This document shows positions 443-18,179 of a stretch of DNA of 64,000 nucleotides, in pieces. Source of the DNA: Chryseobacterium wanjuense (GTDB lineage: Bacteria; Bacteroidota; Bacteroidia; Flavobacteriales; Weeksellaceae); NCBI RefSeq assembly GCF_900111495.1, contig NZ_FOIU01000004.1, positions 1 to 64,000 on the forward strand, written 5' to 3'. Each line of letters begins with the position of its first letter. Position 1 is the first letter of the stretch. A model generated the notes under the pieces. That model had not been told where the DNA came from, did no database searches, and saw nothing but the letters and a program-made list of their open reading frames with translations. A program made the translations under genes and the position numbers.

Positions 443-706
443 CAATTAGCATTTTTGTAAATTCTTAGGCGCTATTTTTTTATAGTGAATAAATTTTTAA
501 ATGTTTAATTATGAGATGTTTTGAGGGAATCAAACAGAATGAAATGATATTTTCATTTAAAATTTTTATTTTATCACAAAAATGTGATTATTTTTATTCA
601 TATTTTTTAATCGAATAATTTATAAAGAACTTAAAATTAAATATGGTTCTAAATTATTTGTTAAAACTTATTAAAATATTGCTACGTATATACCAAATTG
701 CTTTTT
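443..706. other. AT-rich intergenic region before susC
   Basis: About 260 bp, very AT-rich, with long T and A runs. It must hold the promoter of the SusC/SusD operon, but no exact TAnnTTTG element with a spaced TTTG was found. The nearest resemblance is around 651-660. No RNA gene was seen. Confidence 0.4.
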
Positions 707-3613
707 ATGAGAAAAATAACTTTTAAGATTGGACTACTCCAGTCCACATTATTCTGTTTGGGGTTGTATGGCCAAAACAGTGACTCTATTAAAACAACAA
801 AGATCGACGAAGTCGTAGTCACTGCGTATGGCGTAAAAAAAGAAAAGAAAGCTCTCGGATATTCTTTCCAGGATGTAAAAGGTCAAACACTTGTAGATGC
901 TAAAGAAACGAATGTGACCAATGCTTTAGTAGGAAAAGTTGCCGGACTACAAGTGATAAAAGGAGGCTTTGGACCTGCTTCATCTTCAAAAATTAATCTA
1001 AGGGGTCTTAATTCTTTTAAAGGAGACAATCAGCCTCTAATTGTCGTTGACGGAGTTCCACTGAGTAATAATTTAGGAACAAAGCCTAAACAAAATGATG
1101 GTTATTACAATAATGACTTTTGGAATCCTGATCTGGATATGGGAAACGGCCTGAGTGATATCAACCCCGATGATATTGAAAGTGTTTCTGTCCTTAAGGG
1201 TGGCGCGGCTTCGGCTTTGTATGGCTCAAGAGGTGGAAATGGTGTTATTTTAATTACTACAAAAAGTGGTAAGAGAAAAGGAGGCTTAGGAATTACCTAT
1301 TCTACGAGTTTAGGATTTGAGACAATTTTTATGAAGCCTGATATGCAGCATAGCTTTGCTCAAGGCAGCAATGGAGTTGCAAACCCGCCAAATGATCCTA
1401 ATGGCACAACTTCCTCATGGGGACCTGCTTTTGCAGGATCTGATATGACTGTTTACGATAATTTGAAGAGTTTTTTTAAAACCGGGATTAATTCACAACA
1501 CACTTTAAGCTTTCAGGAAAATTTGGGAGAAGGCTCCAGCTTGTATACTTCGGCGAATTATTTACATGATAATAGCCAGATTCCAAATTCGAAATACGAG
1601 CGGTTTAATTTTATGGCTAAAATGAATTCAACATTCGGAGCCAATAAAAGATGGACGTCTGAAATGAAAGCTCAGTATATCAGCACAAAGGCTAATAACA
1701 GACCTTCCGGAGGAAGTGGAGATGGGAACTATTATCCAAGAATTCTTCTCATGCCACAGAATATTGATATCAATGATTATCGTGAAGGGCAGATGCAAAA
1801 TGGCGTAAATTCCCGCTGGATTACCTCAAACGGAATCAATCCTTACTGGTCGGCCTATAATAGTCTTAATTCAGATAAAAAAGACAGGTTTTTATTAAAC
1901 GGATATCTTAAATATCAATTCAACGACTGGCTGAGCGCCGATGTGAGATTAGGAACGGATTTCTATTCTCTGAATGCAGATGCAAAAGTATGGACAGGCT
2001 CTTCCCGCAAGAACTCTTATGGAACAAGTGAAGAAAAGTTTTATGAAAATAATTATATTACAAGTCTGACGGCCAAAAAAGATAACTTATTTGGAAAATG
2101 GGGAGGCTCGCTTTCGGTATATGGTCAGATGATGGAAAGTCGAACTAAAGCTATTTACTTCTCAACACAAAACCTTATTATCCCAAATGTATTTAGTGTA
2201 GATAATACAAGTGATCTTGCTGCGGTGGCTACCAATGAGGTAGATTTTAGAAAAAAGATCAATTCCGTATTTGCGGCTGCTGAAATTAATTATGACGGCT
2301 ATTGGTATATTAATGCTACAGCTAGAAATGACTGGTCTTCAACCTTAAATATTGAAAACAGATCTTATTTTTATCCCTCAATAAGCACTTCCTTGGTCTT
2401 AACGGAAATGTTGAATAAATTAAACGGAACCACATCTAAAATTTTAACCTTCGCCAAATTACGTGCAGCATACGCGGTAACGGGAAACTCCTTAAATCCT
2501 TATGAGCTTTATAATACCTATACTCTTTCTACAGATCCCAACGGTCATATTATCTTGAGCAGAAAGAAGATATTATATAACTCAAATTTACAGGCAGAAA
2601 AGCTAAAGACCTTTGAAGTAGGGGCAGATCTTAAATTCTTTAACAAGGTTTCTTTGGATGTAAGCTATTTTAATAATAATGCTACAGGCCAATTGATAGA
2701 CCTTCCTATGAACCCTCTTTCTGGGTATGAGCAGGCAAAAATAAGTTCCGGAGGATTGCATAATAGTGGAATTGAGGTTGTTTTAAATACAGATATCTTT
2801 AAAAAAGAAAACTTTATCTGGAATATTAATGCAAATTTTTCTAAGCTTAAAAGTATAATCGATAAAATTGACGGCACTGTTTCGAAATATCCTTTGGCTG
2901 GTTTTGACAATGTCGGAATTTTTGCTGAAGTGGGAAGACCTTACGGAGCTATTTATGGAACAAAGTTTTTAAGAGTAGAAGATGTGAATAGTCCTTACTA
3001 TGGGAAACTTATTGTCGATCAAAATGGATTGCCGCAGGCAACACCCGACCAGCATTATTTGGGAGATCAATCTCCTAAAGCTTTGTTTGGGTTTACAAAT
3101 AGTTTTGTAATTAAAAATTTTGGTCTTTCTTTTTTAATTGATGGAAGAATTGGAGGTGAATTTTTCTCAGCAACCCAATCTGCATTACAAAGAGTCGGAC
3201 TTGCCGAAGATACGGCTCCGGGAGGAAGACGCGATAATATCGTACTGGATGCAGTCGTACAGGGCGGCAGTGGTTATACGGCAAATACCAAAGAAATCAC
3301 TCAACAGGATTATTGGACTGCTGTCACAACAGGAAATCTTGGAATTACGGAACAAAATATTTATGATGCCACCAATATCCGGCTTAGAAATGTACAATTA
3401 TCCTATAATTTTCCAAAAAGTATTTTTGAAAAGCTGGCCTTACAAAGTGCTAAAGTTGCGTTCACTGCAAATAATGTATGGATGATTTATAGTAAAGCAA
3501 AAGGCGTAGATCCGGAATCTGTATTTGCCATAAATTCTAATGCTGTAGGATTTGAAAACCTTGCATTTCCTACAACGAGATCATATTTATTTACTATTAC
3601 ACTAGGATTTTAA
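707..3613 (+). CDS. SusC/RagA-type TonB-linked outer-membrane transporter
   Basis: TonB-dependent nutrient transporter of the SusC/RagA family, which forms an outer-membrane barrel with a SusD lid. The ATG at 707 is preferred over an in-frame TTG at 698 because it directly begins a signal peptide (MRKITFKIGLL, ending near LYGQ). The mature N-terminus reaches the conserved EVVVTAYG segment almost at once, followed by a plug domain (LRGLNS, PLIVVDGVPL, SVLKGGAASALYGSRGGNGV) and a barrel that ends in an aromatic residue (TITLGF). At 968 aa it is shorter than many SusC proteins because it lacks the usual N-terminal carboxypeptidase-regulatory-like domain. The susD partner starts 21 bp downstream. 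No neighbouring enzyme indicates the substrate. Confidence 0.93.
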   Translation: MRKITFKIGLLQSTLFCLGLYGQNSDSIKTTKIDEVVVTAYGVKKEKKALGYSFQDVKGQTLVDAKETNVTNALVGKVAGLQVIKGGFGPASSSKINLRGLNSFKGDNQPLIVVDGVPLSNNLGTKPKQNDGYYNNDFWNPDLDMGNGLSDINPDDIESVSVLKGGAASALYGSRGGNGVILITTKSGKRKGGLGITYSTSLGFETIFMKPDMQHSFAQGSNGVANPPNDPNGTTSSWGPAFAGSDMTVYDNLKSFFKTGINSQHTLSFQENLGEGSSLYTSANYLHDNSQIPNSKYERFNFMAKMNSTFGANKRWTSEMKAQYISTKANNRPSGGSGDGNYYPRILLMPQNIDINDYREGQMQNGVNSRWITSNGINPYWSAYNSLNSDKKDRFLLNGYLKYQFNDWLSADVRLGTDFYSLNADAKVWTGSSRKNSYGTSEEKFYENNYITSLTAKKDNLFGKWGGSLSVYGQMMESRTKAIYFSTQNLIIPNVFSVDNTSDLAAVATNEVDFRKKINSVFAAAEINYDGYWYINATARNDWSSTLNIENRSYFYPSISTSLVLTEMLNKLNGTTSKILTFAKLRAAYAVTGNSLNPYELYNTYTLSTDPNGHIILSRKKILYNSNLQAEKLKTFEVGADLKFFNKVSLDVSYFNNNATGQLIDLPMNPLSGYEQAKISSGGLHNSGIEVVLNTDIFKKENFIWNINANFSKLKSIIDKIDGTVSKYPLAGFDNVGIFAEVGRPYGAIYGTKFLRVEDVNSPYYGKLIVDQNGLPQATPDQHYLGDQSPKALFGFTNSFVIKNFGLSFLIDGRIGGEFFSATQSALQRVGLAEDTAPGGRRDNIVLDAVVQGGSGYTANTKEITQQDYWTAVTTGNLGITEQNIYDATNIRLRNVQLSYNFPKSIFEKLALQSAKVAFTANNVWMIYSKAKGVDPESVFAINSNAVGFENLAFPTTRSYLFTITLGF

Positions 3614-3634
3614 CACCAAACAAAAATTGAAACA

Positions 3635-5530
3635 ATGAAAAAATATATCTTATCCTTTCTTGCAGTAACGGTACTTTCTGTTTCATGTAATGATTTTGAA
3701 GACATCAACAACGATCCGTTTTCCGTAGATATTAATAAAGCTGAACCTGAATATTTTTTAAATAATTCAATTCTCGGGGCACAGCAAGACCCCAATATTG
3801 CAGAACGTGTTTTTGTTTTATACTGGAAAACTGCAGCAAGACAACATTTGACAACCGGAATTGCGGGAGGGACATACGATGATTCATGGACTTCAGAATA
3901 CTGGAAATATATTTCAGAATGGCTTAATAATGCAAATGCAGCGATACAAATAGCTAATGAGAAAAAAGCACTCGGTCAAGGCAAACCTTATTATGACAAT
4001 ATTATTCAGGTTTCCCGAATTTGGAGGGCTTATTTAATGAGTGAATTTTCCGATAACTTCGGGCCACAGCCAATTCAGGCATTTCAGGGTACGAATCCTA
4101 CTTTTAATTCTGAAAAAGAAGTGTATTATTTTATTTTAGATGAATTAAAGGATGCAGCCGACAAAATGGATCTTAACCAGGCTGCTCCCTCAAATCCCAA
4201 TGCTTATGATATGGTGTATGGTTTTAGCTGGGGAAAATGGGTAAAATATGCCAATTCCATGAGAATGAGAATTGCAATGAGAATTTCAGAAGTAGATCCT
4301 GTAAAAGCAAAAACCGAGTTTGAAGCAGCTGCCAATTCCAATATGTTCATCGCTTCAAGCACTGATAACTTTACGGTGGCCGAAAAGCCAGGATGGGATG
4401 CCTTAACGGGCGTAATGTCCAGAGAATGGAATTCCCAGATTTTGTCGGCAACTCTTAATAATATTTATATTGGCTTAGGGGGAATTAATACTACCAGTCA
4501 GTTACCTGCAGCTCAACATCCTGCTGTAAAAGCTGCTGATTATGTAGGAATAAAATACGATCAGCAATTCACCACAATGACGAACGATCCTAGCGCGGGA
4601 TATTGGCTGGATGGGCTTCCCAACAAAATTGATCCAAGAGCTTATAAAACTTTCTATATTCCCGGAGATCTTACCAATCCTATTTATTCTCTTTATCCCA
4701 CTTATACCAATGAGGCCACAACCAATTATGGCAATCTTACTTTTGCAGATAATTCTCAGATAACAATTAATACCGTAAATACCTGGAATGCTTATACCAT
4801 TGGAAACTGGGGAGTGAAAGGACAAAGGAACGGATTAAGAAATGTAATAGGCTGTATGCCGGCTTTAGGAAAACAATATAGAGAAAGTAAAAATTCCAGG
4901 ATATTTTTTGCAAGCTGGGAATCTTATTTCCTTATCGCTGAAGCGGCTCTGAAAGGATGGGCAACACCCATGAATGATGAAGCAGCTTACAACAAAGGTA
5001 TTCAGGATAGTTTTACTTATAATAATGTTTCACAGTTTTACGGGCAATACATTGCTTCTACAGACTATAACAGGGATGGGACATCAGTTGCGTACAATCA
5101 TACAACGGAGCCGGGAGCAAGCCATACCATGCAGTATAAAGATCCGTCAACTAATAATTTAGTTTCTGTTGAAATTAAATATCCTGTCAATACCATTTAT
5201 AAAAACGGAGCCTTTAAAAATGATAAATTAACAAAGGTTATTACTCAAAAATATATTGCCAATATGCCTTGGCTGCCTTTGGAATCCTGGAGCGATCATA
5301 GAAGACTGGGACTTCCGTTCTTCGAAAATCCTGCCATTGAAGCTCCGTTGGTGAATTTACCGAATCTGAATGCTGGAAATTATATGACCAATTCAATTAA
5401 AAATTTCCCTCAAAGATTAAGATATCCGAGTACTTTCAGAAATACGGATCAGACAGGTTACGATAAAGCCGTCCAACTTCTCGGAGCCGAAGATGCTGTT
5501 CTTACTCCGCTTTGGTGGGCAAAACATTAA
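3635..5530 (+). CDS. SusD/RagB-like outer-membrane lipoprotein
   Basis: Surface lipoprotein that captures substrate for the SusC transporter encoded just upstream. The signal peptide ends in a lipobox (LSVSC, mature N-terminus CNDFEDINNDP), the usual SusD-like_2 beginning, with TPR-like helices over the first half (WLNNANAAIQIANEK, IWRAYLMSEFSDNFG). The length of 631 aa is on the long side for the family. The C-terminal region keeps the SusD signature of a QKYIANMPW helix, a WSDHRRLG stretch and RLRYPS before the end. A strong terminator follows at 5565, so the SusC/SusD pair is a complete two-gene operon. Confidence 0.93.
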   Translation: MKKYILSFLAVTVLSVSCNDFEDINNDPFSVDINKAEPEYFLNNSILGAQQDPNIAERVFVLYWKTAARQHLTTGIAGGTYDDSWTSEYWKYISEWLNNANAAIQIANEKKALGQGKPYYDNIIQVSRIWRAYLMSEFSDNFGPQPIQAFQGTNPTFNSEKEVYYFILDELKDAADKMDLNQAAPSNPNAYDMVYGFSWGKWVKYANSMRMRIAMRISEVDPVKAKTEFEAAANSNMFIASSTDNFTVAEKPGWDALTGVMSREWNSQILSATLNNIYIGLGGINTTSQLPAAQHPAVKAADYVGIKYDQQFTTMTNDPSAGYWLDGLPNKIDPRAYKTFYIPGDLTNPIYSLYPTYTNEATTNYGNLTFADNSQITINTVNTWNAYTIGNWGVKGQRNGLRNVIGCMPALGKQYRESKNSRIFFASWESYFLIAEAALKGWATPMNDEAAYNKGIQDSFTYNNVSQFYGQYIASTDYNRDGTSVAYNHTTEPGASHTMQYKDPSTNNLVSVEIKYPVNTIYKNGAFKNDKLTKVITQKYIANMPWLPLESWSDHRRLGLPFFENPAIEAPLVNLPNLNAGNYMTNSIKNFPQRLRYPSTFRNTDQTGYDKAVQLLGAEDAVLTPLWWAKH

Positions 5531-5564
5531 TGATAAACTAAGCTACAGAATTTTTTTTTTCAGG

Positions 5565-5599
5565 AGTCCTTTTCAATTTTTTTGAAAGGGACTTTTTTT
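5565..5599 (+). terminator. Rho-independent terminator after susD
   Basis: A 12-bp stem (5565-5576 with 5582-5593, one G-T pair) is followed by at least six T residues. It lies between the convergent susD and pilin-like operons and touches the last codon of the minus-strand gene. Confidence 0.85.
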
Positions 5600-6125
5600 A
5601 AAGCGCACTTATGGTAAAAACAACCCTGCTGTTATAAGTAGTTGCCGGAATAGTTACTGAAACACCGGATAATTCCAGCTGAACAGGGATATTGGTATAA
5701 GAAGCAAGCGCTACAATCGCCTGAATTCTGAATAACTCAACATCCGTCGTCAAGGGAACTGTGATATATATCGTTCCTCCCGTAATAGAGCATGTGAGAC
5801 AGGCTGTTGTTCCGTTTCCGGTTCTTCGGGCATGCAAAATCAGATTGGAATTCCAGGTAGGATTGGCCTCATAATGAACAGACACTTTTCCGCTCCCTAA
5901 CAATAATGGAACACTTGCCGCCAACAAAATTTGATTGGTCGCACTTTCATAAGTTCCTGTATAATTGCTTCCGGCTTCTGTAATCGATGGGATGGTTACT
6001 GTCCAATTAGTTCCGCCGACGGTGAGTGTCCGTTGTGATTGTAAATGACAAAATGAAATCAAAAGCACAAAGAATGCACTTTTCACGAAAAATTTAGTGT
6101 TAAAAAAATAGGTTTTAAGCTTCAT
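5598..6125 (-). CDS. Small secreted beta-rich protein, last gene of usher-like operon
   Basis: Exported 175-aa protein of unknown family. After a signal peptide ending near LQSQ the mature protein is rich in Thr, Val, Ile and Asn with alternating polarity, typical of an all-beta fold. It has one close cysteine pair (ACLTCS). Its C-terminus (VVFTISAL) resembles the last strands of the two pilin-like proteins of the operon (TYTISDN, TYTITE), although the body differs. The start lies 12 bp after the preceding stop. By position and sequence it could be a minor or tip subunit of a surface fibre. That is inference. Confidence 0.6.
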   Translation of the reverse strand: MKLKTYFFNTKFFVKSAFFVLLISFCHLQSQRTLTVGGTNWTVTIPSITEAGSNYTGTYESATNQILLAASVPLLLGSGKVSVHYEANPTWNSNLILHARRTGNGTTACLTCSITGGTIYITVPLTTDVELFRIQAIVALASYTNIPVQLELSGVSVTIPATTYNSRVVFTISAL

Positions 6126-6137
6126 TTTAAATCATTT

Positions 6138-6671
6138 TTATTCGGTGATGGTGTATGTGATGACGACCGGAGTATTTGTCCGAGCCGATAAATTGGCGTA
6201 CGTATTTGCAGATAAAGTAATGGTCAGTCGATGTCCGTTATTGGCGCCGGTTCCGGTGAAGGCTCCTCCGATTCCGCTAATGATGGTTTGCGCAGTGGTG
6301 GTCAGCGTTACCTGAGCCGAAGGGGTTCCCAGTGTTCCTCCCCCCGATCCGGAAGCTGTTGCCGCCTGAATCTTTATATCAATTCCTGGAAGAACTTGGT
6401 TAATAGAAGCTGTAATTCTCCTGGAAAGCCCTCCCGGAGCAATAGCAGAAGTATAATTGATCCATTTTGCAGTATTGGCTGCAGGTGCAGTGACGGGTCT
6501 TCCTGCATCGGTGGGTGCTACAAAATTTATAGCGATGGTTCCTGCGGGTTCTACGTCCATGAGTGTCACAACGGGCAAGGTTACAGCAACAGTCCGGTTT
6601 CCTGTGGTTTGTGAAAATATTGTACAGGAAAAGCCTAAAAAGATTAAAAATAATAATTTGAATAATTTCAT
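6138..6671 (-). CDS. Pilin-like secreted protein B (paralogue of 10296-10874)
   Basis: Secreted 177-aa protein with a signal peptide ending near TIFSQ. It is clearly paralogous to the first gene of the operon, sharing TVxVxxPxVxLxDxEP at the mature N-terminus, a W-x-N-Y motif (KWINYTS), GTLGTPSAQ, QTIISGIG, a GANNGH block and a final TYTIT strand. The N-terminal segment alternates polar and hydrophobic residues, as does the C-terminal strand. Pilins assembled by donor-strand exchange have the same layout. The ATG overlaps the stop of the usher-like gene by 4 bp, so translation is probably coupled. Role as a fibre subunit is inferred; a spore-coat-U or DUF4402-type fold is the main alternative. 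Confidence 0.6.
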   Translation of the reverse strand: MKLFKLLFLIFLGFSCTIFSQTTGNRTVAVTLPVVTLMDVEPAGTIAINFVAPTDAGRPVTAPAANTAKWINYTSAIAPGGLSRRITASINQVLPGIDIKIQAATASGSGGGTLGTPSAQVTLTTTAQTIISGIGGAFTGTGANNGHRLTITLSANTYANLSARTNTPVVITYTITE

Positions 6672-9406
6672 TTCCGCTTTTTTGTTTCGTTGTAACTTAC
6701 TTTTATGGTTTCCTGTTGATATTTTACTTCTGTTTGCTGCTTAATGACATGTATGGTTAATTTTTTTATTTCAGAAGGTTTTAAATTAAATCGAAATTCA
6801 TCAATCGGAATTTTATACCTTTTGTCCAATCCGTTTCGGTAGATTTTCACTTTCCATTCTCCAGGACGCAGGTAGGTAAAATCAAAATTTTCTCCGATCA
6901 CCGCCATTTTACGATAAGTTTGATCACCGTTTGAGGCTTCGATAATAAGGTTTTCTTTCTTTTTCTTATCTTTTTTAATAGCAAGTTGCGCAAAGCTCGC
7001 CTGGTTTTCAGAATATTGGATATTTCCTTCAATATTGGCTGCACTGGTCAATCCGAAATTGAAAATATTTTCTTTTTCGGTAAGAACTAACGAGGCAGGA
7101 ACATTTACATCCGGAATATCACCGATTTCCGTTGTAGACCGATCCATTTCTAAAACATAATCTCCCGGAATCACATTTTTAAATATAAAATTTCCGCTTC
7201 TGTCTGTGATGGATAAATGATTTCCCAGCATGAGCCGGATGCCGTCGACTTTTTTCACACCAAGATTTTTAATATTTCCTGAAAGCGTCGTGTATTCTGC
7301 AATTTTCTGTGTCGGAACATTCATGCGCAAGGTGTAACGCAGGGAGAAAATAAAATCTTTATTTCCCAATTCTCCACGCTGCAAAGTATATCTTCCGGAA
7401 AGATCAATTTCATGACCGCGAAAAATCTGTTGATGAAAAAGTATTTCAAAAAGATTCCGGTCGGTATAATAATCTTCAGGCATATAATTGTTCTGATAAA
7501 ATAAGCTGAAACTTGTTGTATCTGAAAATCTGCTTAAAATTCTTGCACCATAATATACCTGCTTCTGGTTTTGCAATTGATACCGTGAAGTAATCGCATA
7601 GCTTCCATATATATTAAATGAAGTTTTAAATTTTTCAAAGCCAATATTCGCGGTATAAAAACTCGAATTCCCGGAAAATCCCGTTAAATAATTGTCGGTT
7701 TTTCCAAATTGCCCTTCCAGATTCAACTGGAAAATCCCAATTTGCTGGTCTATACTTACCTTAAAAAAACGTTCTTTATAATCAAATTCTTTGGGCATCA
7801 AACGGTCTTCATATCTTTGAAATCCGTTGTAAAGCATGACAGAACCACTTTTCATGTATCTGTACTGAATTCCGTATTGTAAGAATTTCCGGTAAGGAGC
7901 CGCCAAAAATAGGGTGTCGCGCTGAAAATTTCTGGCGTCCTGAACATACGTCGCAAGTACATTTATTTTCTTTGAAAGGTTGTACTGAAGATTTCCGTTG
8001 AAAGTACTGGTATTGTTAAAATATCCTGCATATTCCGGACTGGCTTTCATGTACATCACATTCCCGCTGATCTTTTCAAAACTCGCAATAGCCTGAAGCA
8101 TGAATGCATTTCCGTCTGTTTTATCTGTTTTGCTGTAAGAGGCTTCCCCAGAAATCTCAAAATTTTTCGTCAACTGAAATTTTCCGGCAACATAGGGCAA
8201 ATGGGCATTGGAATCCAATCTGAAATTTGAAAAACTTACATCTACATTCTCTGTTCTTGGGATTTTGTATAAATATCCGGTGGTAATTTCCGATTCTTTA
8301 GCAATTTTAAATTTTGAATACACATTAAATTCATCTTTAATATCCCTGAAAAATCTGGGATGATTGTAAAAACCGCCAAAACTTATTTTTTTTAAATCAA
8401 AACGAATTTCTGCGCCGCGACCATACCTTGCATATTCCGTTAAAAACGAAGATGAATAATTTTTATCTCCGAGATGAACAAAGAAATTATCTCTCTTATA
8501 ATTCACAAAATATTCTTCGTATTGGGTGAAAGAATTAAATTCTACCGGATTTTTCGTTATGGCATGGAACTCAAGAAGATTTTTATTGTCTTTGTCTAAA
8601 CTTCCTTTGCCGTAAATTTCACCCTGAAAACCATCGTCATATTCACCGCGGTTTCGCATTCCGATGAAAGAAATCGAAGCTGCCACCGGAAATCTGTGAA
8701 AAATATCTTCTTCAACAGGTTTTACCGAAATGATTTTCACACTTGTATACGCTGTCTGATTTTCCGAAGGGTTATCAAGTGAGTATACCGAAAGATTTAG
8801 GTTTTGATATTCATTTTTTCCTAAATCCGGATTGGTGATTTTATTGATAGTAATTATTTTACTTTCTCCGGGAGGAAGTACTAGTGAAGTATTTTCTTCA
8901 ACAACGGCATTTTTACTTTCAAGGATTAAATTTTCAGAAAGATTTCCGTTATTTTTTAATAAAAAAGTAGCTTTAATGGTTTCTCCTGCTTTTACAAATT
9001 CTGGATAATGTAAAGTTGTCAGGGAAATTTTTCTCGTACCTGAAACAAAAAACGCTGAACTTTTAACGAATTTTTCACCCGTATTTTTTTCAATTCCACT
9101 TAAAAACACAGAATATTTTCCTTGCGGAGTTTCTGTTGCTATTTTTAAAGGAACAATATAAACACTTTTTTCATTTGCTGAAATTTTCAATTCTCCATTG
9201 GTAAGAATCGGAGTGATATGTGAGCTTGATGTCTCGACTTTCAGGTCATAGATTTTACTTTCGGGAGCCGTATTTTCTATCGTAAAGGAAATAGAGGTAG
9301 AGGTTCCCGGCAGCAGACTATCTTTTTTGTTGACAAAATCTTTTTTTTGAGCAAAAATTAGTACTGGGAATAGTAAAATAAGATATAAAATCCAATTTTT
9401 AATCAT
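6668..9406 (-). CDS. Usher-like outer-membrane protein with Ig-like N-domains and C-terminal domains
   Basis: Secreted 912-aa protein (signal peptide ends near LIFAQ). Visible order: two Ig/NEW3-like beta domains at about 25-120 and 125-228 (SISFTIENTAPES, KAGETIKATFLLKNNG); a long barrel-like region at about 235-695 with many aromatic, alternating strands; a carboxypeptidase-regulatory/CNA-B-like domain at about 705-785 (ITDRSGNFIFKNVIPGDYVL); and a last beta domain at about 790-890. Fimbrial ushers have a comparable plan (periplasmic N-domain, barrel, C-terminal Ig-like domains), but no classical usher signature is recognised. It overlaps the chaperone-like gene by 8 bp and the pilin-like gene by 4 bp. 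Function as a secretion pore for the small subunits is inference. Confidence 0.6.
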   Translation of the reverse strand: MIKNWILYLILLFPVLIFAQKKDFVNKKDSLLPGTSTSISFTIENTAPESKIYDLKVETSSSHITPILTNGELKISANEKSVYIVPLKIATETPQGKYSVFLSGIEKNTGEKFVKSSAFFVSGTRKISLTTLHYPEFVKAGETIKATFLLKNNGNLSENLILESKNAVVEENTSLVLPPGESKIITINKITNPDLGKNEYQNLNLSVYSLDNPSENQTAYTSVKIISVKPVEEDIFHRFPVAASISFIGMRNRGEYDDGFQGEIYGKGSLDKDNKNLLEFHAITKNPVEFNSFTQYEEYFVNYKRDNFFVHLGDKNYSSSFLTEYARYGRGAEIRFDLKKISFGGFYNHPRFFRDIKDEFNVYSKFKIAKESEITTGYLYKIPRTENVDVSFSNFRLDSNAHLPYVAGKFQLTKNFEISGEASYSKTDKTDGNAFMLQAIASFEKISGNVMYMKASPEYAGYFNNTSTFNGNLQYNLSKKINVLATYVQDARNFQRDTLFLAAPYRKFLQYGIQYRYMKSGSVMLYNGFQRYEDRLMPKEFDYKERFFKVSIDQQIGIFQLNLEGQFGKTDNYLTGFSGNSSFYTANIGFEKFKTSFNIYGSYAITSRYQLQNQKQVYYGARILSRFSDTTSFSLFYQNNYMPEDYYTDRNLFEILFHQQIFRGHEIDLSGRYTLQRGELGNKDFIFSLRYTLRMNVPTQKIAEYTTLSGNIKNLGVKKVDGIRLMLGNHLSITDRSGNFIFKNVIPGDYVLEMDRSTTEIGDIPDVNVPASLVLTEKENIFNFGLTSAANIEGNIQYSENQASFAQLAIKKDKKKKENLIIEASNGDQTYRKMAVIGENFDFTYLRPGEWKVKIYRNGLDKRYKIPIDEFRFNLKPSEIKKLTIHVIKQQTEVKYQQETIKVSYNETKKRK

Positions 9407-10196
9407 TCTTTACTTCCAATTCCACATTGAGAGCAAATGCGTTTTCATCTTCATCGGTGGCTATGAGTACGGCATTGTATCGGGCAGCAGGCATTTTGCT
9501 TATATCGATATGGAACGATTTTGAGGTTTGTGGTAATAATCCCATTGGCTGGCTGGAAAAAACGCCCAGCTTTTGGCCATCTTTTTTGTAGATTTCTATG
9601 GTTGCGGTTGGTTTGCAATAGAGATTTCCATTGTTGGCAATGGCAACTTTCAGAATCTGGCTTCCGTTTTCTCTTTCGATTTTTAAGCCTTCAAATTTTA
9701 AGTCAGGTTTTGCTTTTTCAGAATCAAAATCTGTAATCACCTGAATGGCATATCGAACGATCGACGTAATATTTATCCCTTCTTTTTCGTTGCTCGGCTT
9801 TATATTTTCCACAGGTTCTACCATGATCACGCTCCAATAGCTTCCCGCATTGGAAAGCTGTTTGGGTACTGTGATCTCGTAGAAGACTTCTGTTTTTTCT
9901 TTTGCTTTTAAAGTGATAAGATTGGTGTTAAGCTTAATCCATTCTGCATTGGTTTTTACATTCGTATTGGGAGCGGTATAGCTGATAGAGCCATCCGACT
10001 GATACGTGAAATCCTGCAAAAATAATTTTACACTTTGTGGCTGACTGCTTGTATTTTCTAGGGAAATTTTTCCTTTATAGACTTGTCCGTTTTCTACTTT
10101 ATAATTGTGGGTAAGACCGTTAAGAATTACAATATTAGCCCGTAAAAGACAGACTGGTAACAGAAAAATAAGCAAAAGGGAAATATGCTTTATCAT
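9399..10196 (-). CDS. Periplasmic two-domain Ig-like protein, chaperone-like or DUF916-like
   Basis: Protein of 265 aa from the ATG at 10196, which directly precedes a signal peptide (MIKHISLLLIFLL). An upstream in-frame start would add an unlikely tail. The mature part looks like two Ig-like beta domains. The first (about 20-135) has KGKISLENTSSQPQSVKL, a DGSISY segment and SNAGSYWSVIMVEP, recalling the DUF916 domain of WxL operons and more loosely PapD-type chaperones. The second (about 150-260) ends VLIATDEDENAF. No membrane anchor is visible after the signal peptide. The downstream usher-like gene overlaps it. A chaperone role for the small subunits is suggested by gene order, not by a conserved catalytic motif. 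Confidence 0.55.
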   Translation of the reverse strand: MIKHISLLLIFLLPVCLLRANIVILNGLTHNYKVENGQVYKGKISLENTSSQPQSVKLFLQDFTYQSDGSISYTAPNTNVKTNAEWIKLNTNLITLKAKEKTEVFYEITVPKQLSNAGSYWSVIMVEPVENIKPSNEKEGINITSIVRYAIQVITDFDSEKAKPDLKFEGLKIERENGSQILKVAIANNGNLYCKPTATIEIYKKDGQKLGVFSSQPMGLLPQTSKSFHIDISKMPAARYNAVLIATDEDENAFALNVELEVKND

Positions 10197-10295
10197 TTTT
10201 AATGTAAAGTTTGGGTTGAAACAAAGACAAAAGAACAAGGAAGAAACTGCTGAGCGATTTCTCCGTATTAAATTTTAAGGGTTTTCAGACGATGA

Positions 10296-10874
10296 TTAAT
10301 TATCCGAAATGGTGTAGGTTACCGTAGCGACAGCTGTTGCAGTGGCTTCCAGATCGGCATAACTGGCGACTGTTCCGGGGCCGCTTCCGGGAGCTAAAGC
10401 ATATGTAAGGTTATGACCATTGTTGGCACCATCACCAGTGTACGCACTTCCGATTCCGGAAATGATGGTTTGATCTGCTGCACTTAATGTCAATTGCGCT
10501 GAAGGCGTTCCTAATGTTCCTCCGCCGGCTCCGGTTGCCGCTGCAGCCGTTACTCTGATGTCAATTCCGGGGATGATGGCATTTACTTTTACAGAAACAT
10601 TACGGGTGGCATCCGCAACAGATTTGATGGATGAATAGTTCAGCCAAAGGGTGTTGTTGGTGCCGGTAGGTGTTACAGGAAGACCAGCTTCTGTAGGCGC
10701 CGTAAATCCTAAAGTAATGTTTTTGTTTGCTGCCGGTTCGATATCTACCAAAGCAACTTCCGGAACAGAGATGGTTACCGTGTGATTGTCTGTGTTCGTG
10801 TCTTGTGCACTCAGGTTGGCAGAAATTGCCACTGCCACTATAGACAAAGCTAAAGTGAATTTGATTCTTTTCAT
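10296..10874 (-). CDS. Pilin-like secreted protein A, first gene of usher-like operon
   Basis: Protein of 192 aa from the ATG at 10874 (MKRIKFTLALSI), chosen over an in-frame upstream start because it begins the signal peptide, which ends near NLSAQ. The mature N-terminus (HTVTISVPEVALVDIEP) alternates hydrophobic residues; the C-terminus VTYTISDN does so too and resembles the chaperone-recognised last strand of pilins. Gly/Ala/Thr-rich and without cysteine in the mature part. It shares at least five motifs with the 6138-6671 product. As first gene it may be the most highly expressed, which would suit a major subunit. No database family is firmly recognised; a spore-coat-U-like beta sandwich is possible. 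Confidence 0.6.
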   Translation of the reverse strand: MKRIKFTLALSIVAVAISANLSAQDTNTDNHTVTISVPEVALVDIEPAANKNITLGFTAPTEAGLPVTPTGTNNTLWLNYSSIKSVADATRNVSVKVNAIIPGIDIRVTAAAATGAGGGTLGTPSAQLTLSAADQTIISGIGSAYTGDGANNGHNLTYALAPGSGPGTVASYADLEATATAVATVTYTISDN

Positions 10875-11054
10875 GATGTTATGATTTGGTAATGTGAAGT
10901 TAGTAAAATTCATCATAGTTTGAAATATTTTTAACTCTTTTTTTAATGGTTATAGTTCATTTTCAATATTTTAACATTTCAATTTTTAATGGTTAAAATA
11001 TTTCTGCATTTTATAACTTTTTAATTTAAATTTTTATGATTAAACTCAATAACT

Positions 11055-13545: not shown

Positions 13546-15021
13546 TTATTGCAACCACCACGGTTTAGAATTGATGTTATCATTTCCTCCGTATTGTGAT
13601 GCCAATGCAGCCTTAAGATTAGCATTGTTGTAATTGTACTCAGATTGTGGATACCGGAATCTGAAAGGTGCTGAAACTCCTGTCTGTAAAGGGAAGTTTG
13701 GGTAACCTGTTCTCAGATAATCGTAATAGGAAGTCCATTGTGACTGATGGAACATTGTCATGTATTTTTGTGTCATGATTCTTTCCAGTTGTGTTGCCAA
13801 AGGAGCTGAATTATCATACACAACCAGAGGAGTCGCCAGATAATTATTAACATCAAATCCTGAAAAATACAGACCAGGATTTTTTACATAAGTCTGATAA
13901 AAACTAAAACTGGCTTTAATGGCATTGTCGTAATGTGTTTTTGCCGATCCTGAAATCCAACCTCTTGCCGTAGCTTCAGCTAAAATAAATTCTAGTTCCG
14001 AATAGCTTAATACTGATGAAGGCTCGTTGGTAGCATCTTTGTAGAAACGGTCGTTTACTTTAGAAATGTTTTTTGCTGTAATTAAAGCTGCATTATCAGA
14101 ATAAGGAGAAGTTGGGTTTCCTCCGTTATACCCTGTAAAATCAGTGATGGGTTTTCCTGCTTCTTTTGCTCCGGTTGTCTGCGCTGCAAAAGTGAATAAA
14201 CGTGGATCTTGTCTTGTTTTGAATAAATCAATAAAATAATTGGCCATGTACAAACTCGACCCGTAACCACTGTTGTTGAACATCGTGTATCGGCTGTCTG
14301 CAGCGTCTACGAATTTTAATTCTCCGTTGTCTGCAATAGATGTCATTAAAGTCTGGCTTCCTGCGATGGATGCGAATTCCGTTGCAACGTTGTAACTTCC
14401 AATGGTCGCTTTTTTAGACATTGTTATCAAAATTTTCAATCGGAAAGAATTGATCAGTTTTTTCCATTTTGTTGCGTCGCCGTTGTAGATGATATCGCCT
14501 TCGATTTTATCGTTTTGATTGATTAAATCGTTGGCTTCTTTTAATTCCGTTAAAATTCCCGCCATCACGGTTTCCTGAGAATCGTACTTTGGCTGGGTAA
14601 TTCCTGATTCTCCTTTTACGGCTTCAGAATAAGGGATGCTTCCGAATTTTAAACTTAAATTAAAGAAATACAAAGCCCTGTAAAATTTACCGATGGCCTG
14701 GTAATTTTTATTGTTAAGTTTTTCTGCTTCCTGCATCATTTTCACCGTATTCAGAAGGCCTTTTGTGTAAACATCGAATGAGGCATCGCTCCACTTCATG
14801 TACTGATAAGTATTTTCACCGTCTGTCCCGATCATCATTCTGGAAGCATACATATTGTCGCCATTCACCTGAAAAGCATTGGAAGAAACGTAGGTCAACA
14901 AATATTTCGGATCTACACTTGCCTGATCATTCGGGTTTTCATTGATGGTGTCAAGATTAGATTCGCAAGAAGTCAACGCTAATAATCCAACTACAAAAAT
15001 TGATTTTATAATATTTTTCAT
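13546..15021 (-). CDS. SusD/RagB-like lipoprotein beside phospholipase C
   Basis: Outer-membrane SusD-family lipoprotein of 491 aa. The signal peptide ends with a lipobox (LALTSC) and the mature N-terminus has the typical DTINENPND. Helical TPR-like repeats follow (YQAIGKFYRALYFFNLSLKFG), and the C-terminal part has the family's QKYMTMFHQSQWTSYYDYLRTG and FRFRYPQSEYNYN. It starts 17 bp after the susC stop on the same strand, the standard paired arrangement. Ligand unknown; the downstream phospholipase C makes a lipid headgroup or phosphate-containing ligand a reasonable guess. Confidence 0.93.
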   Translation of the reverse strand: MKNIIKSIFVVGLLALTSCESNLDTINENPNDQASVDPKYLLTYVSSNAFQVNGDNMYASRMMIGTDGENTYQYMKWSDASFDVYTKGLLNTVKMMQEAEKLNNKNYQAIGKFYRALYFFNLSLKFGSIPYSEAVKGESGITQPKYDSQETVMAGILTELKEANDLINQNDKIEGDIIYNGDATKWKKLINSFRLKILITMSKKATIGSYNVATEFASIAGSQTLMTSIADNGELKFVDAADSRYTMFNNSGYGSSLYMANYFIDLFKTRQDPRLFTFAAQTTGAKEAGKPITDFTGYNGGNPTSPYSDNAALITAKNISKVNDRFYKDATNEPSSVLSYSELEFILAEATARGWISGSAKTHYDNAIKASFSFYQTYVKNPGLYFSGFDVNNYLATPLVVYDNSAPLATQLERIMTQKYMTMFHQSQWTSYYDYLRTGYPNFPLQTGVSAPFRFRYPQSEYNYNNANLKAALASQYGGNDNINSKPWWLQ

Positions 15022-15038
15022 TTTGATTTTTCTTTTAA

Positions 15039-18000
15039 TTAAAATTTAAGATTAAACCCTACTCCGATCCATCTGCTTGAAGGATCCTGAATATCATTTC
15101 CTGTCCCGATTTTGTAATCCGGATCCGAATAAAGATTTTTAGATTTTTTCCACATCGCCAGATTGTATCCTGAAATATTTGCCGTGAAGCCTTTTACCAT
15201 ACCTCTTGGGTTTAATAAATAAGAGAAGTCATATTCCAGAACTACGGATCTTAATTTCACGAAAGTTCTGTCGAAAACGTTGGCAAATTCTTCACTTTCA
15301 TCTTCTGTCACTCTCGCCTGATAAGGATAATTCTGTGCCCAATCCTGGAAGCTGATGGCTTTGGTGTGTGGCGTGTACGTTCCTGTTGCTGCATTATAAT
15401 TTACACCATCCGGAACAAAATAATACGTTCCCGGATTTGCATATTCCAGATCTCTGTATTGTGTAGAATTCGGATGCTTTCCGCCCCACCACATTTTTTC
15501 TACCACCTGCGATCTCATGACACCACCGACACTTCCGTCGATTCCGATATTCAAAGTGAATTTTTTATATTTAAATGTATTGTTGAAACCAAACGTCCAA
15601 TCCGGATTGAAATGTCCTAGATTTGTCGGTGTGTTTGCTCTTGTCGGCATTCCTGTTTCGGCATTCAGGATCACTTTTCCGTCTGGGGATTTTTGCCAAG
15701 TGTAGTCGTAGTAACTATCCATTCTCTCTCCAAGTTTGATATTGTTGTAAACCGGCATATTGTCGTAAATGGAAGTCAGTTTCTGTTCGTAAGTACTCCA
15801 GTTGATCAATGATTTCCATGTAAAATCGGATGTTTTAACTGGTGTTAATCCTAATGAAATTTCAAGACCTTTCGTAGTGTATTCGTTTCCGTTCACATAT
15901 TTTGAGGTAAAACCTGAAGGTTGCGCGCTTGGGAACTGAAGGATATTATTATAATCCAATGTTCTAAAATAAGTAGCGTCCAACGTAATTCTATTGTCGA
16001 AGAAACCTGCACTTAATCCTAATTCATAAGATTTTGTCTGTTCCGGCTTTAATGTATTTTCAACATTTAAAGTAGTTGGATAATAATAGGTAGGATTTCC
16101 GTTGAATGTAATTCCGCCATTGTTTACATAATAATTTCTGATCGAGTAAGGCTGAAAATCATACGCTACCTTTGCCCACGAAGCGGATAATTTTAACAGG
16201 CTGATGGATTCCGGCATTTTAATTAAATTCGAAACAACAGCACTCAATGAAGCGGAAGGGTAGAAATATGATCTGTTGGCTTTCGGGAGGGTAGAAGACC
16301 AGTCGTTACGACCAGAAACGTTTAAGAAAAAAGCATTGTACAAACCAACGTCAATCGTTGTATAGGCACTGTAAATTAACTTTTCTTTTAAATAATCATA
16401 ATATTTTACAGCTCCGACAGAATTATCCAAAGTATATAATTCCGGAATTTTCAAGCCATCTGTTGAAGCATTATCCACATCATTTTTATAGTAAAAAGCA
16501 GAACCTCCAGCATTGATCGTGAAATCAAAATTTTCAGAAATTTTCTTTTTATACGTTGCTAAAACATCATAGTTGAGGTTCCAGGTTTTGGTATCGTTCA
16601 AAATATAGCCACCACTTCTCGGTGCACTGTAATTAAAATAAGAATATGGGCTTAGAATTTCCTGTTTGTTGTGGTTTTCCACAATGGAAATTTTCCCTTT
16701 TACCGAAAAATCTTTCGTTGCTTTATATTCTAAACCTGTCTGTGCATTGATAATGTTGGTTCGGTTTTTATTTTTATAATATTCTGCTCCAAACCATGGG
16801 TTGTTGTACCATGCGTAGTTCCAGTTGGCTTGTGCAGTTCCTTCTTTTCCGGGAATCCACATATGATTTTTAAGATCTCTTCCGTCTACATCGCCTCCCA
16901 TCCAGATCAGAATCGTGTACATGTGACCACTTGGGTTGTAATCGTAATTCGGAATATTTGGGGTAAAAGTCTGATTAAAATTAAATTTAGTATCAAAAAT
17001 TAATTTTTCGCCTAAATGATTTTCAGATGAAAAATTTACACCATAACGCTGAAGATAAGACTCAGGAACCCGGTCGTCATAGTTCATGAAATTTCCTGAA
17101 AGTCTGTAAACATCTTTATTATTTTTATAACTAATCGAAAAATTGTTATTATTAATTACCGCTGGTTTCAGGAAAGTATCCAGGTTATCATGATATTTCC
17201 AATCGATCGGAACTCTTTCGTATCTTGATTTGTCATCATACTGAGTTCCCGTCACTGCTCCATACCACGGCGTTACCTGTCCTGTCACTTTATCTCGGAT
17301 CGGGCTGTTCCATTGTGCGATTTTCAATCCGGGAGTAAATTTCGGACCCCAGATCATATCTCCATCGTTCACACCGCCATCGGCTCCGTCCCAGAATTCA
17401 TATTTTCCGTGCGAACCGTTTCCGTATTCTGTCTGAGTTTTCGGAAGGTTGGTAAATCCCGCTGTGACCATTGTGTTTTGAGAAAATTCAACTGTGAAGC
17501 CTTTCTTTTTTGCACTTTTTGTAGTAATCAAAACAGCGCCGTAACGGCCTCGCGAACCGTAAAGAGCGGAAGCAGTTGCTCCTTTCAATACGTTGATATT
17601 GTCAATATTATTTGGATCTAAATTTTGGAAAACTTCTTTTTCAACAATCACTCCGTCGATTACAAAAACGAGATTTGAATTTCCTCTTAACGTAAATTGC
17701 GGAGCCTGTTGCATTCCTGTTGGGTTTGAAACATTTAATCCGGCAACCTGCCCTGAGAATAGATTTCCGATGCTTGGAGTTGTGATTGTTTCAAATTGTT
17801 TTGTTCCAACTTCCTGAGTTGAGTAACCGATTTTTTCTTTCTTTTTTGCAATACCTAAAGCGGTGATGACAACACCCTCGATCTGTTTTTCATTAACCTT
17901 TTTTAATACAACAGAATAATTTCTTTTGTTTGAAACTTCGATAGTATACGTGGAAAATTCCGGTGAAAAAAACTCAAGGACATCTTTCGGATTGGCTGAG

Positions 18001-18179
18001 ATGGTGAAATTTCCGTTTTCATCGGTGGTAGCCGTTTTTCCGGTGTTTTTGTCGGTAACATTGACGCCTGAAACACCAGAGCCGTTTTCGGATTTTACAT
18101 TTCCGGAAATGTTGATTTCTTGAGCAGTAAGATAAAGGGGAAGTAAAAAAACCGCAAAAGTAGCTAAAGTCTTCTTCAT
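15039..18179 (-). CDS. SusC/RagA-type TonB-linked transporter beside phospholipase C
   Basis: Full-length SusC-family transporter (1046 aa). The signal peptide ends near LTAQ, then comes a carboxypeptidase-regulatory-like domain at about 20-100 (NISGNVKSENGSGVSGVNV, TTDENGNFTISA). A TonB-box-like segment (VVITALGI) and a plug domain (GQVAGLNV, LVFVIDGVIVEKE, NVLKGATASALYGSRGR) follow, and the barrel ends GVGFNLKF. Unlike the transporter at 707-3613 it keeps the N-terminal accessory domain. It is the first gene of susC-susD-phospholipase C. A TAAATTTG box at 18191-18198 lies only 11 bp before the ATG, implying a very short leader if used. Confidence 0.94.
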   Translation of the reverse strand: MKKTLATFAVFLLPLYLTAQEINISGNVKSENGSGVSGVNVTDKNTGKTATTDENGNFTISANPKDVLEFFSPEFSTYTIEVSNKRNYSVVLKKVNEKQIEGVVITALGIAKKKEKIGYSTQEVGTKQFETITTPSIGNLFSGQVAGLNVSNPTGMQQAPQFTLRGNSNLVFVIDGVIVEKEVFQNLDPNNIDNINVLKGATASALYGSRGRYGAVLITTKSAKKKGFTVEFSQNTMVTAGFTNLPKTQTEYGNGSHGKYEFWDGADGGVNDGDMIWGPKFTPGLKIAQWNSPIRDKVTGQVTPWYGAVTGTQYDDKSRYERVPIDWKYHDNLDTFLKPAVINNNNFSISYKNNKDVYRLSGNFMNYDDRVPESYLQRYGVNFSSENHLGEKLIFDTKFNFNQTFTPNIPNYDYNPSGHMYTILIWMGGDVDGRDLKNHMWIPGKEGTAQANWNYAWYNNPWFGAEYYKNKNRTNIINAQTGLEYKATKDFSVKGKISIVENHNKQEILSPYSYFNYSAPRSGGYILNDTKTWNLNYDVLATYKKKISENFDFTINAGGSAFYYKNDVDNASTDGLKIPELYTLDNSVGAVKYYDYLKEKLIYSAYTTIDVGLYNAFFLNVSGRNDWSSTLPKANRSYFYPSASLSAVVSNLIKMPESISLLKLSASWAKVAYDFQPYSIRNYYVNNGGITFNGNPTYYYPTTLNVENTLKPEQTKSYELGLSAGFFDNRITLDATYFRTLDYNNILQFPSAQPSGFTSKYVNGNEYTTKGLEISLGLTPVKTSDFTWKSLINWSTYEQKLTSIYDNMPVYNNIKLGERMDSYYDYTWQKSPDGKVILNAETGMPTRANTPTNLGHFNPDWTFGFNNTFKYKKFTLNIGIDGSVGGVMRSQVVEKMWWGGKHPNSTQYRDLEYANPGTYYFVPDGVNYNAATGTYTPHTKAISFQDWAQNYPYQARVTEDESEEFANVFDRTFVKLRSVVLEYDFSYLLNPRGMVKGFTANISGYNLAMWKKSKNLYSDPDYKIGTGNDIQDPSSRWIGVGFNLKF

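Follow-up and report, generated by a model that had tools for sequence, protein, structure and literature searches.

Layout and conservation of the operon

Five linked genes lie on the minus strand of the window, the whole 64,000-nucleotide stretch of Chryseobacterium wanjuense DNA that was analysed. In order, they encode pilin-like subunit A of 192 aa (10296..10874, from an ATG at 10874; the mechanical ORF begins at 10916), a WxLIP-type chaperone candidate of 265 aa (9399..10196 from its ATG; the mechanical ORF begins at a TTG at 10238), an usher-like outer-membrane protein (OMP) of 912 aa (6668..9406), pilin-like subunit B of 177 aa (6138..6671), and a terminal small beta protein of 175 aa, a candidate tip or cap subunit (5598..6125), the last three delimited by their ORFs. 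The successive junctions are a 99-bp gap, an 8-bp overlap, a 4-bp overlap and a 12-bp gap, and both these and the coordinates agree with the first-pass annotation of this DNA. The overlaps suggest that the genes may be translationally coupled. The 912-aa gene is present in a single copy in the genome.

The first-pass annotation had proposed a check of neighbourhood conservation. A profile of the 912-aa protein found 116 loci, and we made this check on the best 80 of them. All five genes occurred in the same order in 76 of these 80 loci; gene 1 was absent in L011 and L048 (the latter a short contig piece), and genes 4 and 5 were fused in L068 and L070. The 8-bp overlap between the chaperone and OMP genes (genes 2 and 3) was found in 80/80 of the loci, and the 4-bp ATGA overlap between genes 3 and 4 in 68/80. 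Because gene order and overlaps are kept across the 80 related loci, these results provide strong evidence that the five genes form a real unit, not a chance arrangement.

The operon is flanked by a TonB-receptor/SusD pair on the plus strand (698-5530) and by a SusC/SusD-type pair on the minus strand (13546-18179). An AT-rich inverted repeat, seen by eye at 5545-5600 between the operon end and the convergent SusD-type gene, is possibly a shared terminator. A phosphoesterase/phospholipase C-like gene (PF04185, PF05506; 11114-13465) lies directly upstream of the operon, as it does in many Chryseobacterium loci, and a promoter scan of the region gave 16 matches where 17.9 were expected by chance. 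At the place of the TonB-receptor/SusD pair, two other loci, L040 (9809-14727) and L075 (10535-14751), carry a convergent downstream rRNA operon, which is not present in L042. Such an rRNA operon may be the reason why 58 of the best 80 loci extend over less than 11 kb. The chaperone gene of L058 (5275-6008) is broken across two frames, which is either real or a sequencing error.

Domains and folds of the encoded proteins

Both WxLIP domains were present in the 265-aa protein, each above its Pfam cut-off: PF06030 (WxLIP_PGBD) scored 29.4 bits (cut-off 27.3) and PF11797 (WxLIP_HBD) 31.9 bits (cut-off 28.9). Its only solved relatives by sequence were two EfmWxLIP1 chains (E = 3e-6 for 9i25_C and 3.4e-6). 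A 13-sequence chaperone profile matched EfmWxLIP1 chains at 1.5e-7 and 1.7e-7, with the next of the seven matches listed at 0.18. HHalign comparison of 15 window-type chaperones with seven Lactobacillales WxLIPs gave a probability of 97.3% over 219 columns, compared with at most 2.4% in 70 reversed-profile comparisons and 48.5% over 67 columns when the WxLIP set was compared with the Ig domains of the usher, a control for mere Ig likeness. The DUF916/WxL look noted at first pass is thus, as judged from profile and sequence comparison, real homology. Relatedness to the E. coli chaperones was much less evident: PF00345 (PapD_N) was not found in the 265-aa protein by Pfam search, and direct profile probabilities against E. 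coli chaperones were 3.9% for the window-type chaperones and 0.7% for Gram-positive WxLIPs.

The operon shares the PGBD and HBD domains with the WxL/WxLIP clusters of Lactobacillales and Bacillales, but differs from them in having an outer-membrane barrel and a diderm host. The 265-aa protein ends after its second Ig domain, whereas all seven Lactobacillales WxLIPs carry a hydrophobic C-terminal helix (read from the tails); without this helix, it fits a free periplasmic protein. The WxL domain (PF13731) was not found in the genome, with a positive Lactococcus control. As neither a membrane helix nor a WxL domain was found, the operon is not filed as a WxL cluster.

An AF2 model of the 912-aa protein (mff30cf0fd242; pLDDT 76.7, pTM 0.52) predicts N-terminal Ig-like domains at residues 31-226 (8729..9316, assigned by DSSP of the model), a 26-strand barrel at residues 234-704 (7295..8707) and C-terminal beta domains at residues 723-890 (6737..7240), all on the minus strand. 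The first C-terminal domain has a pLDDT below 60, and a weak Pfam match to CarboxypepD_reg falls in the C-terminal domains. This predicted architecture agrees with the one originally proposed, except for the lumen plug, whose absence had been listed at that stage as part of what would speak against an usher: the longest gap between the 26 modelled strands is 17 residues, leaving no plug-sized insert. The FimD barrel has 24 strands.

Whole-chain Foldseek search against the PDB, the fold search initially proposed, placed FimD first and PapC next, among Ig-repeat proteins, with a TM of about 0.3. VIA found the barrel about equally like many outer-membrane proteins and did not separate FimD from porins. 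PF00577 was matched neither in the 912-aa protein at E ≤ 1 nor anywhere in the genome, with a positive E. coli control, and canonical FimD membership was therefore ruled out. By profile, the window-type OMP matched E. coli K-12 ushers at a low probability of 19.7%, in the C-terminal register; the highest of 70 reversed pairs reached 2.4% and a SusC control (two sequences) at most 7.7%.

Subunit A has a signal peptide (by eye), an alternating-hydrophobic N-terminal strand and conserved W-L-N-Y and TEAG motifs, and matched no Pfam family. Its alignment with subunit B gave 48% identity, in keeping with the paralogy first suggested. The pilin-domain fold of subunit B was taken from the model of a fused homologue; in a structural search with this domain, 12 of the first 14 rows were chaperone-usher pilins, with modest Z. 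WxLIP and WxL structures were absent among the 50 rows listed, which excludes nothing. Sequence profiles of the pilins gave no detectable match to E. coli pilins and none to WxL domains. The pilins had been considered as WxL domains, as their C-terminal strands are alike by eye (YTISD vs TWTLSD), but this was rejected at a profile probability of 1.1% for the window type. The first WxL set of seven included one non-WxL protein (L202:4927-5601, no PF13731); in the second set, this protein was removed, the large WxL domain of L199 was added and L196 was kept though below cut-off (17.5 of 25 bits), and window-type pilins reached 0.5% and other types at most 3.3%. When PDB sequences were searched with a pilin profile, the matches were one triosephosphate isomerase and several profilins, the latter with E values from 0.02 upwards, and all were taken as chance.

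The terminal 175-aa protein, initially described simply as a third small beta protein, is indeed one, and it also looks like a remote pilin relative, sharing by eye the TEAG motif and the C-terminal strand with the pilins. Most of its relatives contain a CxxC, and in some species it is naturally fused to subunit B. In a model of such a fusion, built on an alignment with rows picked for alignment correctness and 29 cap rows on the second half, the linker (residues 180-220) had low confidence, and a donor strand was neither seen nor ruled out.

Proposed assembly pathway and alternatives

The gene logic of subunit, chaperone and usher suggested by the first-pass annotation was supported, and we consider it likely that the operon is a divergent chaperone-usher-like pathway assembling a surface fibre with a WxLIP-type chaperone. 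As in the chaperone-usher pathway (FimC/FimD, PapD/PapC, and the archaic and alternative classes), a two-Ig chaperone candidate adjoins a predicted Ig-plus-barrel OMP; the OMP has FimD and PapC as its best Foldseek matches, and the best structural rows of the pilin domain are mostly chaperone-usher pilins. The window proteins differ from them in the lack of PF00577 and PapD_N matches, in the N-terminal Ig domains, in a modelled barrel with no plug and two more strands than FimD, and in low profile similarity to the E. coli ushers. Because PF00577 was not matched and the model has no plug, the operon is not filed as chaperone-usher.

We infer that strands are donated and exchanged, that the chaperone docks on the usher-like protein, and that subunits leave through its barrel to form a fibre. 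All five proteins would cross into the periplasm via Sec. There, the WxLIP-type protein would lend a hairpin strand to the incomplete pilin fold, keeping the pilin soluble, and would dock at the N-terminal Ig domains of the usher-like protein. The N-terminal extension of each subunit would then take the place of the strand that the chaperone lends to the neighbouring subunit. The fibre would be driven outwards through the 26-strand barrel, with the C-terminal domains holding it and the fifth protein as its cap or tip. With no plug in the model, gating would have to differ from that of FimD.

By homology, the chaperone candidate stands closest to WxLIP, and PMC10599100 includes the proposal that WxLIP remains bound to its partner on the surface. 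Both points favour a WxL-like surface coat or adhesion complex of the WxLIP-type and small beta proteins, with the barrel as an anchor or one-step secretion pore and no strand-exchange fibre. We regard such a complex as unlikely, as no WxL domain was found in the genome, the window-type pilins reach only 0.5% against a WxL profile, the WxLIP-type protein has no membrane helix and many loci carry two or more pilin-like genes. A secretion pore exporting single adhesin subunits, escorted by the Ig protein without polymerisation, would suit the undiscriminating VIA result and an N-terminal extension visible in sequence and model only; it appears improbable against the paralogous subunits in one operon, the natural subunit-cap fusions and the ushers as best whole-chain fold matches. 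An electron conduit like the Mtr complex would fit the VIA ranking of the barrel, in which chain B of that complex (the 26-strand MtrB) came first, but it is very improbable, as none of the five proteins contains a CxxCH haem motif.

The proposed chaperone-usher-like pathway would share its phylum and its surface-fibre role, as deduced here, with type V (Mfa/FimA) fimbriae. None of the five proteins matched an Mfa or FimA Pfam family at E ≤ 1. A Deinococcus deserti homologue is annotated FimB/Mfa2, at 21.7 bits against a cut-off of 21.2 and matching 58 of 277 positions only.

Distribution and related locus types

The chaperone profile (E ≤ 1e-5) matched 44/395 Bacteroidota genomes and 24/170 genera, all locus types pooled. 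When only the chaperone was used to fetch Bacteroidota loci (L148-L187), 34 of the 40 were followed within 3 kb by an ORF of 750 aa or more on the same strand. For comparison, 86 of 365 other ORFs of 200-400 aa had such a large neighbour, although this background comes from the same loci, all 57 of them. The six loci without a large downstream ORF were L177 (contig edge), L160, L165, L166, L169 and L179. The last four are loci of one genus group and match the chaperone well (E = 7e-66 to 2e-74), and L173, of the same group, was counted positive only via a 759-aa stop-to-stop frame; in three of the four, genes of about 200-620 aa lie downstream instead. Of thirteen loci fetched by the OMP (L105-L117), one ends at a contig edge (L110) and 11 of the other 12 had a chaperone ORF (all except L111); because these loci were fetched by the OMP, the pairing tells no more than that the chaperone lies beside it. 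A search with a single OMP query found 17/296 genomes and misses relatives found by the chaperone profile.

The chaperone thus occurs in about a ninth of the sampled Bacteroidota genomes, mostly beside a large OMP-type protein annotated with names such as 'COG1470 family protein', and could mark an overlooked class of surface fibre. WxL research would also gain a testable mechanism, the WxLIP hairpin donating a strand to a pilin-like partner, and a plugless usher would reveal which usher parts are dispensable. Among the papers listed in a literature search, no title or abstract described this operon. Archaic chaperone-usher systems are known from Proteobacteria, Cyanobacteria and Deinococcus-Thermus, with no mention of Bacteroidetes in the excerpted text (PMC4654587).

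Outside Bacteroidota, the chaperone profile also matched four Deinococcus plasmids. The Deinococcus deserti plasmid carries an operon of pilin, chaperone (29.8% identity, 5e-27), 839-aa OMP and pilin, and the three further plasmids carry chaperone and OMP with one gene between; by profile, these three matched the window type at 99.2-99.5% for the chaperone and 98.2-99.2% for the OMP. In further searches of plasmids, neither the type 2 chaperone nor the window OMP gave a match, and the OMP of family f23 matched three proteobacterial plasmids.

The chaperones of type 2, type 3 (Chryseobacterium and relatives) and f23 loci matched the window type at 98.9, 99.4 and 99.5%, respectively, over nearly full length. 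Type 2 and type 3 OMPs matched the window OMP at 98.2 and 99.8% over 840 and 854 columns, and representatives of the two (L152:6852-9656, 934 aa; L153:2087-4882, 931 aa) had no Pfam usher domain at E ≤ 0.1. The profile probability of the type 2 chaperones against Gram-positive WxLIPs was only 15.4%, even though one of these chaperones scores above the PF06030 cut-off (32.2 bits). The f23 OMP matched the window OMP in the C-terminal domains only (94.5%, 170 columns) and the E. coli K-12 ushers at 84.5% over columns 129-404, which include the plug. In a Polaromonas relative of the f23 type, the subunits are of the DUF4402 kind and the chaperone passes PapD_N (25.3 bits, cut-off 23), so that the f23 chaperones link the window type to a PapD_N-positive protein by a chain of profiles; the Polaromonas OMP alone matched E. 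coli ushers at 0.4%. The initial statement that chaperone-usher systems are not normally credited to Bacteroidota therefore needs qualification for the f23 loci, in both OMP and chaperone. The f23 chaperones matched those of E. coli at 72.6%, or 89.0% with Polaromonas added, which is no better than the 75.1 and 87.6% obtained against the usher's own Ig domains, and direct links are also low. Common descent of the window chaperone with PapD is a plausible possibility.

It is possible, and we suggest it tentatively, that the Gram-positive WxL/WxLIP system and Gram-negative chaperone-usher descend from one donor-strand assembly system, with the Bacteroidota and Deinococcota operons as the surviving link, in which a plugless usher and its pilins still go together with a chaperone of WxLIP type.

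In type 3 loci, the chaperone and OMP genes are separated by a further gene of about 340-376 aa. In a same-genus genome, a second chaperone-OMP locus (L152:3160-5961) contains four nearly identical tandem 181-aa pilin-like genes, which suggests recent duplication or gene conversion.
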